NCBI GenBank assembly: GCA_031271975.1
Contig: JAISUR010000042.1
Span: forward strand, 1-64,000
Source: Propionibacteriaceae bacterium
Lineage (GTDB): Bacteria; Actinomycetota; Actinomycetes; Propionibacteriales; Propionibacteriaceae
DNA: 64,000 bases
Reading direction: 5' to 3'
Of the stretch, positions 15,398-54,136 are shown piece by piece. Within the stretch, counting starts at the first letter, position 1; each line of letters opens with the position of its first letter. The translations under genes were made by a program, and so were the position numbers. The notes under the pieces were generated by a model. That model worked only from the letters and a program-made list of their open reading frames with translations. It was not told the DNA's origin and did not search any database.

Positions 15398-16969
15398 ATG
15401 CCCCCCGAACCAGGCGGAGAGGAGTATTCGCCGTGGGCGCCGCCGGGCTATTACGGGGATGACGTGCCTTATCCGGTCCAGGACCCGCCGCCTCCCCCAC
15501 CGCCGCCGGAGCAGCCGGTCCCAGCAGCGGTTGCCGCACCCGCGTATGATCCGATCGCCGGTACCGCTGTCCCCATCACAACACAGGTGGTATCGCCAAG
15601 GGGCAACCGCAAGACTCCTATCCTCGGCATCGCCGCATGCGCCCTGGCTACCGTGCTGGTGGCCGGATTGACCGTCGTCTTCCTGGCCGGGCACCAGCCA
15701 GCTCCCGCACCCACACCCAGCCTCACGCCGGGCAATAGCGAAACTCCGCCAATCCAGCCCACGTCCAGTTGGAGGACCGGCACTCCGCCTGCCGGAGAGC
15801 CCGGAGCCACGCTGACCAGCCTGCCGCTGGTGCCAAACGAATCGGACGGCGACTTCGAACTCGGAGTGGACTCCAGCGTTGTCCGCGAAGATCACTACGG
15901 CCGGTGGAATCCGGCCAAACTGCCCAGCGACAGCCTGATCTACGACTTGACCGACGAATACGTCGCCGCCCAAAGCAAAGCCACCGGTTGGACCAAGAAA
16001 GAAGTCAAGAAGGCCTTCAAGCTGGCGGTGGATTTCGCCATAGACGAGTTGCTCGACTCAGAACTGGTCTGGGACGACACCGTGGACAACCGGGAGCGGG
16101 TGGTCAAGCGGCTGCGCGGCAAGTACATCACGTCCGGCGACAAGGCCATAGCGCAAGCAGTCAGCGACCCCCAGCGTTGCGGCGATCCGCCCATCGACTG
16201 CCTGTTCGACCAGAACATCGCAGATTGGCGCGGCGCCGACCTGACAGGCTATCCCAGCGTGAGACCCGCCCCCTATCAGCTGGGCGCACCCAGATACGGC
16301 TTGACGTCGTACTGGGTCGACGAAGATTCGGATGTGATCGGCGGCCGTTTCGTATTCTCGCTGGAGTACATCCGCCAAGTGCTCCTCGCCGACGGATCTC
16401 CGCTGGTCGAAGAATCCTGGCTGACCGCGGAACTAATAGTCGCAAAGAAGAGCGGCAAACTGCGGATCACGGGTCTGGGCGATACGCAGGGCCACGGACA
16501 TAGCTACGTCGGCACGTGTGAGCCGTGGACGGCTCTCGACTACATGCCGACGCTGGCCGAAACCACCGTGCCGGACGACTGGTACAGCTACCGCGCTCTC
16601 GGCCTGGCCTTCGCGCTGCCGGCCGACTGGGCCCAGACGGACCATGACGCGGACGGGGAAACAGAGATCCTCATCTTCGAACCGCCGGTGGCGGCGGATA
16701 CCTGGGGAAACCAAATGTCGGTGCAGGCCAGCCTGTGGGCCGTGCAAGGCTACGAGGACAGGCTGGAAAGCGTGACCCTGGACGATCAGTACTACGCAAT
16801 CCACAAGGACGGCCTGAACGGATACGTCCGGGTAACCGGACAGTGGGACAGCATCCAGGTGATCTTGCGAGACGAAACCACCACATACGACTTCCAAGCC
16901 GACGTGCCCCCCAGCGGCTGGGGCCTCTACTGGGCCAAGCTAATAGTCGGCGGGATGCACGCCGCCTAA
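15398..16969 (+). CDS. membrane-anchored protein with Pro-rich cytoplasmic tail, unknown function
   Basis: I do not recognise the family. This 523-residue protein starts with ~65 residues rich in Pro, Tyr and acidic residues (a short run of consecutive prolines at ~28-37), then one membrane helix (~69-90, ILGIAACALATVLVAGLTVV), a Pro/Thr-rich extracytoplasmic linker and a ~400-residue exterior domain rich in Trp, Tyr and Asp. The topology (N-in, single pass, large outer domain) resembles many actinobacterial wall or secretion accessory proteins. A GGAGA ribosome-binding site (15389-15393) precedes ATG 15398, with TAGGCT at 15368-15373 as a possible -10. It is monocistronic and followed by a repeat-rich gap. 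Confidence 0.75.
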   Translation: MPPEPGGEEYSPWAPPGYYGDDVPYPVQDPPPPPPPPEQPVPAAVAAPAYDPIAGTAVPITTQVVSPRGNRKTPILGIAACALATVLVAGLTVVFLAGHQPAPAPTPSLTPGNSETPPIQPTSSWRTGTPPAGEPGATLTSLPLVPNESDGDFELGVDSSVVREDHYGRWNPAKLPSDSLIYDLTDEYVAAQSKATGWTKKEVKKAFKLAVDFAIDELLDSELVWDDTVDNRERVVKRLRGKYITSGDKAIAQAVSDPQRCGDPPIDCLFDQNIADWRGADLTGYPSVRPAPYQLGAPRYGLTSYWVDEDSDVIGGRFVFSLEYIRQVLLADGSPLVEESWLTAELIVAKKSGKLRITGLGDTQGHGHSYVGTCEPWTALDYMPTLAETTVPDDWYSYRALGLAFALPADWAQTDHDADGETEILIFEPPVAADTWGNQMSVQASLWAVQGYEDRLESVTLDDQYYAIHKDGLNGYVRVTGQWDSIQVILRDETTTYDFQADVPPSGWGLYWAKLIVGGMHAA

Positions 16970-17006
16970 GGACCGCGGGCATGTCAACAGAACTGTGACC
17001 CCCACT

Positions 17007-17280
17007 GTCATCCCGGACTTGTTCCGGGGTCCCCGCAAAGTATCGAAGAACTTTGTGGGGTGGAGTTCCGGGATCTCGGACGCAGTCCGTGTGTCCCGCC
17101 AGGGGCACGCCTGCGGCGCGCATGGGACTACGTCCCAAGATCCCGGGACAAGCCCGGGATGACGGTTGAGGGGGTCCCCGCAAAGTACCGCAGCGCAGCG
17201 AGGACACTTTGTGGGGTTTGATCCCGGGACAAGCCCGGGATGACGTGGTTGGGGTACCGCGGCGAAGCTAGGGCAGTTTG
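17007..17280. repeat. repeat-rich intergenic region with palindromic REP-like units
   Basis: This covers most of the 321-base gap between the membrane-protein gene and rbsK. CCCCGCAAAGT pairs with ACTTTGTGGGG twice, at 17031-17041/17050-17060 and 17176-17186/17206-17216. An identical 26-base unit with a CCCGGG...CCCGGG palindrome is present at 17139-17164 and 17220-17245, and a diverged inverted copy starts at 17007. A degenerate third unit is at 17255-17286. No coding potential was seen. Related units recur near 37362, 37875 and 54103. Confidence 0.8.
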
Positions 17281-17290
17281 TGGCGTTTGA

Positions 17291-18190
17291 TCATCCCAGG
17301 TCGGCGAGGTGGGGAATCGCGGGGATGGCGCCGGGCTTTGTCACCGACTGGGCGCTCGCTTTGACGGCCAGCGATAACGCCTCGGCGACGGATTGGCCAC
17401 CGGCCAGGCCAGCCGCCAGGTAGCCCGTGAATGTGTCCCCAGCGCCCGTCGTGTCCACGGCCGCCACGGCGGGGGCGATCTGCTCGAAAAGCTGCTCGCG
17501 GGTGGCGGCCAGCGCTCCTCCGGCCCCCAGCGTGCAAACGACGACGTTCTGCAACCGGGTGGCCAACGCCGTGGCCAGGGTGGGCGCGTCCGCGTCGATA
17601 GACATGCCCAGCATGCCCGCCACCTCGATGAGCTCCCCGTAGTTGACCACCAGCACGTCGCTGACGGCAAGGAACGAGCGGGCCTGTTCCAACACCGGCG
17701 ACACGTTGAGCATGACGCGGGCGCCGCGGCGGTGGGCGGTGAAGATGGCGGCTTCGATGAGCGGGCCTGGCACTTCGAGCTGCAACAACACGAAATCCCC
17801 TGGGCCCAATTCGGCCAAGCCGCGATCCAAGTCCGCGGCCCCCAACTCGAAATTGGCGCCGGGCGCCACCACGATCTGATTTTCGCCGCGCTGGTCCACC
17901 ATCACGAACGCCGCGCCCGTCGGCTTGGGCGAAACCCGCACGCTGGCGGTGTCTACCCCGGACTCGCGCAACGCGGCCAGCAAGCGCTGGCCAGCCGTGT
18001 CTTCGCCGAGGGCGGCCACCATACGGGTGCGCGCGCCAGCCCGGGCGGCCGCCACCGCCTGATTGGCTCCTTTGCCGCCGGGGGCCAAGGCGTAATCCGT
18101 GCTCAGAACCGTCTGCCCGACACCGGGCAACTCAGGCATGGTAAGGCGGTGATCCAGGTTCGCGCTTCCGACGACGACGACTCCGCCCAT
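17291..18190 (-). CDS. rbsK: ribokinase
   Basis: A 299-residue PfkB-family sugar kinase that phosphorylates ribose at O5. It has the ribokinase N-terminus VVVVGSANLDHRLTMPELPG, PfkB signature 1 GGKGANQAVAAARAGA, and signature 2 DTTGAGDTFTGYLAAGLAGG containing the catalytic Asp. Length is normal for the family. The frame continues upstream, but ATG 18190 gives the correct N-terminus; TAGTCT, which overlaps the stop codon of metG, ends 7 bases before it and may give rbsK its own leaderless transcript. No ribose transporter is adjacent, so it may serve nucleoside salvage or the sugar importer at 3999-7714 (speculative). Confidence 0.92.
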   Translation of the reverse strand: MGGVVVVGSANLDHRLTMPELPGVGQTVLSTDYALAPGGKGANQAVAAARAGARTRMVAALGEDTAGQRLLAALRESGVDTASVRVSPKPTGAAFVMVDQRGENQIVVAPGANFELGAADLDRGLAELGPGDFVLLQLEVPGPLIEAAIFTAHRRGARVMLNVSPVLEQARSFLAVSDVLVVNYGELIEVAGMLGMSIDADAPTLATALATRLQNVVVCTLGAGGALAATREQLFEQIAPAVAAVDTTGAGDTFTGYLAAGLAGGQSVAEALSLAVKASAQSVTKPGAIPAIPHLADLG

Positions 18191-37361: not shown

Positions 37362-37390
37362 CGTCATTCCGGACTCGTTCCGGAATGACG
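37362..37390. repeat. isolated palindromic repeat unit
   Basis: CGTCATTCCGGA (37362-37373) pairs perfectly with TCCGGAATGACG (37379-37390), with a CTCGT loop. It resembles the CATCCCGG...CCGGGATG palindromes of the 17007-17280 region and sits between two divergent promoters. Confidence 0.7.
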
Positions 37391-37874: not shown

Positions 37875-37900
37875 AGCGCAGCAAGGACACTTTGTGGGGT
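37875..37900. repeat. partial copy of the dispersed repeat
   Basis: These 26 bases match 17192-17217 with one difference; the shared core is GGACACTTTGTGGGG. They lie in the 63-base gap between the converging Rv3259-like and DUF5719 genes, 6 bases from the DUF5719 stop. Confidence 0.75.
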
Positions 37901-54102: not shown

Positions 54103-54136
54103 GTGTCCTCGCTGCGCTGCGATCTTTTGCGGGGAC
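54103..54136. repeat. inverted copy of the dispersed repeat
   Basis: These 34 bases match, in reverse complement and with a few differences, 17174-17207. The shared core is GTGTCCTCGCTGCGCTGCG (54103-54121) plus a GCGGGGAC end. They lie in the 115-base gap between aroG and the acyltransferase gene. Confidence 0.75.

Follow-up and report, generated by a model that had tools for sequence, protein, structure and literature searches.

The gap before rbsK in this actinobacterial genome holds one copy of a repeat family that recurs throughout the host genome and is best explained, with a probability of roughly 0.63, as a non-coding and non-autonomous REPIN-like repeat of CGTC-tagged REPs, copied via single-stranded DNA by a trans-acting enzyme that is not a RAYT. 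According to this reading, two inverted CGTC palindromes and the four mini-hairpins of the spacer between them would be copied as one unit through single-stranded DNA, in which each half of the unit would fold into short local hairpins, by a trans-acting enzyme other than RAYT. Copies would land between genes, frequently close to gene 3' ends, and would often come to sit in tandem or nested arrays. The doublet with its conserved spacer works as a REPIN-like unit but, on the evidence below, is not placed among the RAYT-linked kind; we infer that the unit moves, that it does so through a single-stranded intermediate, and that an enzyme is involved.

A composite repeat in the gap before rbsK

Within the window, that is, the whole 64,000-nucleotide stretch analysed here, the composite lies in a 321-bp gap (16970-17290) between two convergent genes, a plus-strand gene that ends at 16969 and had no match in a Pfam search, and rbsK (17291-18190, minus strand), a PfkB-family kinase. 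An initial annotation of this DNA had described at least two full hairpin units in the gap (CCCCGCAAAGT..ACTTTGTGGGG) and two identical 26-mers (GATCCCGGGACAAGCCCGGGATGACG). All were recovered (Table 1), the hairpins as B and D (0 in 100 shuffles) and the 26-mers as the right and third A palindromes, together with a third copy of the 26-mer, diverged and inverted, at 17006-17028 (0 in 100 shuffles). The related pieces that it had placed elsewhere in the window proved to be palindrome A or halves of the long-loop hairpin D, and all copies in the window lie between called genes, as it had stated. What it had not described is that the first hairpin and the palindromes flanking it form one 159-bp composite, and that the family extends genome-wide.

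Table 1. Repeat features of the window, by position
Feature	Position	Strand	Description
Composite element	17006-17164	+	159 bp; inverted CGTC-type palindrome pair (HH dimer), hairpin spacer and nested B
Left palindrome A	17006-17075	+	tag TGTC, stem ATCCCGGA, loop CTTGT; B inserted within
B hairpin	17031-17060	+	CCCCGCAAAGTATCGAAGAACTTTGTGGGG (arms CCCCGCAAAGT..ACTTTGTGGGG); nested in left A
C spacer	17077-17137		four hairpins, h1-h4
C hairpin h1	17077-17089	+	CGGAC-GCA-GTCCG; GNA loop on + strand
C hairpin h2	17091-17108	+	GTGTCCC-GCCA-GGGGCAC; GNNA loop
C hairpin h3	17106-17121	-	centred on GCC-TGC-GGC; - strand loop GCA; pairs 36/45 and 38/43 (alignment columns) compensatory
C hairpin h4	17123-17137	-	TGGGAC-TAC-GTCCCA; GTA loop on - strand
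Right palindrome A	17139-17164	-	CGTC tag at outer end
D	17171-17217	+	long-loop form of B hairpin (17176-17216), preceded by GGGGT
Third palindrome A	17220-17245	-	oriented like right A
D-like remnant	17246-17290	+	degenerate, reaching rbsK stop; sequence reading, motif search giving just a 2-mismatch arm at 17274-17285
Symmetric palindrome A	37362-37390		single, fully symmetric, perfect 29 bp (CGTCATTCCGGACTCGTTCCGGAATGACG)
Half D hairpin	37875-37900	+	3' half
Half D hairpin	54103-54136	-	degenerate, inverted

Copies in the host genome and anatomy of the unit

Exact patterns matched the host genome (2.70 Mb in 49 contigs, 99.86% complete) at 291 A palindromes (134 + 157), 88 C spacer cores (35 + 53) and 71 B/D hairpins, with no match for the backwards controls, and the whole-genome count that the initial annotation had proposed thus shows a dispersed family. 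A DNA search of the same genome returned at least 113 matches (40 of 229 candidates scored). Repeats lie no more than a few hundred bases from the ends of the host contigs C4, C6, C11, C31, C40, C41 and C44; the assembly probably breaks at repeats, which makes the copy numbers likely lower bounds.

Neighbouring A palindromes no more than 250 bp apart at the fetched host loci form 63 HH pairs (tags outside), 11 TT pairs and 74 HT pairs. A C spacer is present in 58 of the 63 HH pairs, while four of the other five have a spacing of -21, each being a single symmetric palindrome, like that at 37362, counted once per strand, so that the true HH count is about 59. HH pairs without B most often have a spacing of 65 bp, those with one B 109 bp and those with two 153-154 bp (range 49-176), a step of 44 bp that marks B as a copy-number-variable insert. 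The 55 distinct C cores have a median identity of 87%. By inspection, the flanks of the composites differ between sites, save for a partly common CCCCA/TGGGG-like extension beside the tags.

The tag of A is CGTC in 193 and TGTC in 21 of 239 distinct instances, under a search pattern that itself demanded NGTC. The stem is 8-9 bp long and opens with AT over its first two pairs, followed by C-G or G-C as the third (pair counts were made on both strands, for instances found by the stem pattern with at most four mismatches), and the tail is CTT in 68, CTC in 59, CCC in 54 and CCA in 3 instances. Loops have 5 nt in the host (CTTGT, CTCGT) and 4, 5 or 6 nt in congeners. Judged from its tag, stem and loop, the host A can be classed as a CGTC REP. 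The two palindromes of a composite mostly form heterodimers: in 47 of 56 cases, left and right A are of opposite type at the third pair of the stem (Fisher 7e-5, after removal from the table of two HH pairs whose left palindrome was T-type).

Placement relative to genes

Placement was assessed in the window and in 20 stretches picked blind to the location of matches (464 kb in all, 92% coding), with genes called by a home-made gene finder. This sample contains 19 clusters, of which 17 lie in gaps, one at a contig end and one inside a called ORF, some 20 bp from the start assigned to it; the sample's 44 motif hits compare with one in the shuffled sample, and extrapolation gives about 110 clusters per host genome. 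When match-centred loci are added, 57 clusters are available, 47 of them in a gap, two in an ORF call and eight not flanked by called genes at both ends. The unit is therefore neither confined to the sites first noted in the window nor scattered at random within genes, but dispersed, mostly intergenic and structured.

The 47 placed clusters are divided among 20 tandem, 16 convergent and 11 divergent gaps. Convergent gaps are favoured (16/47 clusters versus 19/171 gaps, p 0.0005, gaps below 60 bp being left out of the background), and in the 20 tandem gaps the median distance from cluster to upstream 3' end is 30 bp. Both findings would suit punctuation at the RNA level, with the hairpins selected as stabilisers or terminators of transcript ends between genes and their spread incidental, as would the strong RNA fold predicted for 17006-17245 (z -9.75) and the G.T wobble that the B/D hairpin keeps on one strand. 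Divergent gaps, however, show no deficit (11/47, p 0.58), no T-run that would make an intrinsic terminator was found within 16900-17350, and the C core is absent from 29 congeners. We consider this explanation unlikely, also in view of the loop sequences described in the next section, although effects of the element on transcript ends are possible.

Local hairpins rather than a long cruciform

The structure prediction that the initial annotation had suggested returned the strong fold mentioned above, and the local hairpins show compensatory changes. In an alignment of the C core (A1, 55 rows), folding into four local hairpins leaves 97.4% of cells paired; four odd C cores and one duplicate had been dropped, as had one aberrant L218 core before alignment. 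Double-sided changes occur in 28 cells compared with 7.2 +/- 2.2 after shuffling (0/500 as high) and all fall within h2 and h3, at three of the 21 pairs; counted by pair instead of by cell, they do not exceed the shuffles (386/500 as high). The stems of h1 and h4 are invariant in A1, partly by construction since the core search pattern demanded most of both stems.

An extended cruciform joining h1 and h4, as drawn by RNAalifold, was rejected, because the loop centres fail to pair. Assuming h1-h4 pairing, the loop centres lack a standard pair in 38 of 55 rows, and they are Watson-Crick complementary in 2 of 49 rows where 11.3 are expected (0/20,000 shuffles as low; six rows with a four-base h4 loop left out). 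The deficit persists with one row per h2-h3 haplotype (2/47, P 1e-4) and in two separate halves (1/26, P 0.007; 1/23, P 0.013), and is weaker when G-T counts as a pair (12 versus 20.3, P 0.003), all of these P values being optimistic because the copies are related by descent. This anti-pairing signal amounts to a quantitative test of the idea, put forward in a survey of CGTC REPs, that heterodimers escape the removal of long palindromes (Di Nocera et al. 2013, PMC3733652).

The loops themselves are of restricted types. The h1 loop is GNA in 55 of 55 rows (N = T in 31, C in 13, G in 6 and A in 5), including all 31 rows other than the 24 from loci chosen with a pattern that fixed the h1 G and A, and a wider collection of C cores contains one exception in 61. 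On the other strand, GNA loops are formed by h4 in 43 of 55 rows and by h3 in 48 of 55 (read as TNC), with a further six and two rows, respectively, of the GNNA form. The 55 h2 loops parse as 30 tetraloops (26 of them GNNA), eight triloops and 17 otherwise, and the third base of the GNNA loops is a pyrimidine in 23 of 26. In DNA, d(GNNA) loops are stable, and in RNA, GNRA loops follow a purine rule at the third base, from which the h2 loops mostly depart. GNA loops have been described as extraordinarily stable DNA mini-hairpins (Yoshizawa 1997, as cited in PMC6479982). Read from sequence, these loop types favour DNA over RNA as the folded strand; GNA and GNNA loops are compatible with a role in RNA as well.

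Target sites and the nested hairpin

Inverted ends of about 25 bp and the lack of coding capacity would also be expected of a MITE derived from a DDE-type transposon, with the A palindromes as terminal inverted repeats. One nested insertion, B, fits such an origin in that a repeat of 8-9 bp, (T)GTTCCGGG, usually flanks it, and in the window the stretch GTTCCGGG is repeated either side of B in the left A. Nearly all B copies, however, sit at one common position, and this, combined with the modal spacings given above, suggests that the flanking repeat may belong to the 44-bp tandem unit. At 18 isolated composites, flanking direct repeats have a mean of 3.9, as against 3.9 for swapped flanks, and reach at least 6 bp in two cases where 1.2 are expected; at D the mean flanking repeat is 4.7 versus 4.6 in the control, with no excess that would indicate target duplication. 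Since A is moreover found alone and in tandem, a MITE origin appears quite improbable. The same lack of target duplication at the 18 composites slightly lowers the REPIN-like reading too.

Distribution in the genus and search for a transposase

The C core is found in one of 30 genomes of the genus, the host itself; MAGs of this Propionibacteriaceae genus presumably come from termite guts. A generic CGTC-REP pattern is abundant in five of the 30, with 198 matches in the host, 231 in G018 (9% contamination), 138 in G009, 71 in G005 and 41 in G021, is sparse in G012 (11), G010 (2) and G014 (1), and has no match in the other 22. Across the phylum, 13 of 396 genomes match, namely the host and 12 genomes with one match each. 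In the loci fetched from eight congeners, the canonical features (tag, AT, stem and a loop of 4-5 nt) are present in four, namely G005, G009, G018 and G021. The CGTC REP families of these four genomes are large and have other types of loop (CTTGA, CTCCGA, GAAC), and in G009 REP pairs occur in both inverted orientations.

The initial annotation had likened the repeats to REP/MITE elements and proposed a search for a REP-associated transposase (tnpA-REP). It was right as to the kind of element, dispersed, mostly intergenic and structured, and its remark that the window lacks a transposase holds for the nine genes adjoining repeats, none of which is a transposase. The link to a REP transposase (RAYT) found no support: the host genome has no match to Y1_Tnp (PF01797), in a search whose control recovered the domain in 5 of 14 known genomes, and the tag is CGTC instead of the RAYT-type GTAG. 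That a RAYT mobilised these REPs and has been lost or is encoded elsewhere would agree with their general REP/BIME look and with the presence of Y1_Tnp in 14 of the 30 genus genomes, including three of the five that are CGTC-rich (at least 41 matches). Nevertheless, Y1_Tnp is absent from the host and G009 despite their 198 and 138 matches and present in 10 of the 22 genomes without any; of the sparse genomes, G012 has it and G010 and G014 do not. Y1_Tnp presence thus does not follow CGTC copy number within the genus, and the B/D hairpin does not occur at any of the 10 Y1_Tnp loci fetched from genomes that bear it. A RAYT link is largely contradicted by these observations, and we regard it as very unlikely.

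Amplification by recombination and gene conversion alone, with no enzyme, would match the tandem arrays, the mosaic clusters and the lack of target duplication, but is scarcely probable given some 100 clusters with unrelated flanks, which are hard to reach by homology alone.

Counting against copying by a non-RAYT enzyme, neither transposition nor excision was observed, nor was any orthologous site found empty, and the Y1_Tnp search and the nine repeat-adjacent genes yielded no enzyme candidate in the host genome. An empty-site comparison at rbsK, searched in five congener hits, gave none with the repeat-side neighbour, synteny not being kept. On the congener contig L234, a 75-aa match of 95% identity to the neighbouring MetRS gene lies beside an rbsK of only 55%, a mismatch that possibly reflects contamination or transfer. 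With five genomes of 41-231 matches, two of them free of Y1_Tnp, and 22 of 30 with none, the genus forms a clean comparative set for the enzyme.

The B/D hairpin beyond the host

A scan of named genomes placed the B/D hairpin in at least 95 stretches from many phyla. Among the matches listed, 64 of 100 hairpins have a strand-marking wobble; GGGG lies upstream in 51 of these, always on the wobble strand, and on neither strand in 13, while among the other hairpins 24 are oriented by GGGG alone and 12 are unoriented. A control pattern had no match in 26 of the B/D-bearing genomes, again among the matches listed. In Leekyejoonella (L063, L076, L151) and Cellulomonadaceae (L059), the B/D loops alternate between G-C pairs and stretches of GA and GGA, and GC and AC replace one another around a GNA centre; by their sequence, the GA and GGA stretches might be able to pair as sheared G.A.

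In many Clostridia, the hairpin forms the beginning of an element of about 106 bp (L060-L149; for example L088:7056-7161 and L117:6074-6179) that starts with GGGG(T/C)CCCCGCAAAGTC-GNNA-GACTTTGTGGGG and ends with GACGACG, with several copies per locus at L062, L066 and L111. Compensatory changes affect 15 of its 29 predicted pairs (alignment A2, 21 rows, two rows being left out beforehand). A model of the element has a full-length match in a record from Coriobacteriia (L127:568-688, 60 bits, D-type loop) and matches the window copies at lower scores (30.6 and 24.6 bits), and we infer that the host copies are this element cut down to its hairpin. The Coriobacteriia record joins an actinobacterial D-type loop to a Clostridia-type tail, linking both hairpin forms. 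Some of the ~106-bp copies (L073, L149, L088, L097) lie just upstream of genes whose beginnings resemble those of conjugative-element, possibly PrgI-like, proteins, and others (L060, L067, L083, L116) beside tRNA genes, identified by Rfam at L060 and by eye at the rest. Of 72,556 plasmid records, one matched a 41-nt query of the Clostridia type, and of 50,697 phage records, two did.

Searching 19 of the 95 scan loci against Rfam at the gathering score gave tRNA and FMN riboswitch matches and nothing at the ~106-bp element, and a permissive search with one Clostridia copy gave a single hit of 8.8 bits, at chance level. A known RNA family was likewise rejected for the window, which had no Rfam match at the gathering score and just weak sub-threshold hits at the repeat, the best being sX14 (20.8 bits versus 80). 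In the open literature searched, five versions of the A palindrome sequence did not occur; the 36 articles containing the hairpin-arm sequences are, among the matches listed and judging by title, mostly on human or animal molecular biology, with one on the gut bacterium Intestinimonas.

A possible, though as a whole doubtful, synthesis would be that the composite is an Actinomycetota CGTC-REP transposable unit moved by a non-RAYT enzyme and kept as strings of DNA-type mini-hairpins, with halves mismatched so that no long cruciform forms, and that the nested B/D is the stripped 5' domain of a separate structured mobile element of about 106 bp common to Clostridia, Coriobacteriia, Actinomycetia and Proteobacteria.

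Comparison with known repeat systems

The BOX elements of Streptococcus pneumoniae are a modular intergenic mosaic with a variable number of inner modules, to which the host family, with CGTC REP, C and B/D as its modules, can be likened by description. REPINs are tied to GTAG-type REPs, and the GTAG tag is absent here, the tag being CGTC/TGTC. REPINs are, like the host unit, inverted REP doublets with a spacer; they are proposed to replicate as such units and to fold when in mRNA or in DNA that is single-stranded (Bertels and Rainey 2011, PMC3116915), but they are tied to RAYTs, none of which was found in the host. The GTAG REP/RAYT system shares with the host short tagged palindromes in high copy number and mostly intergenic positions, and differs in its GTAG tag and transposase, both absent from the host (Di Nocera et al. 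2013; Nunvar et al. 2010, PMC2817692).

The open literature searched, with partial coverage, held no report of CGTC REPs in Actinobacteria. A table in RepRanger (2025, PMC12306157) gives palindrome counts for three Actinomycetota genomes, and CGTC appears, in the accessible text of that article, just in the references. The CGTC-tagged super-family is widespread, with five phyla listed in the accessible part of the 2013 survey, Actinobacteria not among them, and no mobiliser given there for it (PMC3733652).

The closest likeness is nevertheless to these CGTC REPs, which share with the host A the CGTC/TGTC tag, an 8-bp stem opening with AT and a 5-nt loop, and with the host family mostly intergenic positions, HH heterodimers and structured spacers (in some families), and for which no dedicated transposase is known (PMC3733652). 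Tags in the super-family are unpaired, at one end of the palindrome, and may also read CCTC, and its loops have 4-5 nt. As far as that survey's accessible text describes them, their tails are mostly CCA, as against CTT, CTC or CCC in the host, and their dimers are mainly HH with negligible head-to-tail arrangements, whereas in the host HT pairs (74) outnumber HH pairs (63). Features that set the host apart are the four-hairpin spacer, the nested second hairpin family and the frequent head-to-tail arrays. The repeat is thus of a known kind, the CGTC-type REP of other phyla (PMC3733652), and what is unusual is its composite form in an actinobacterium.
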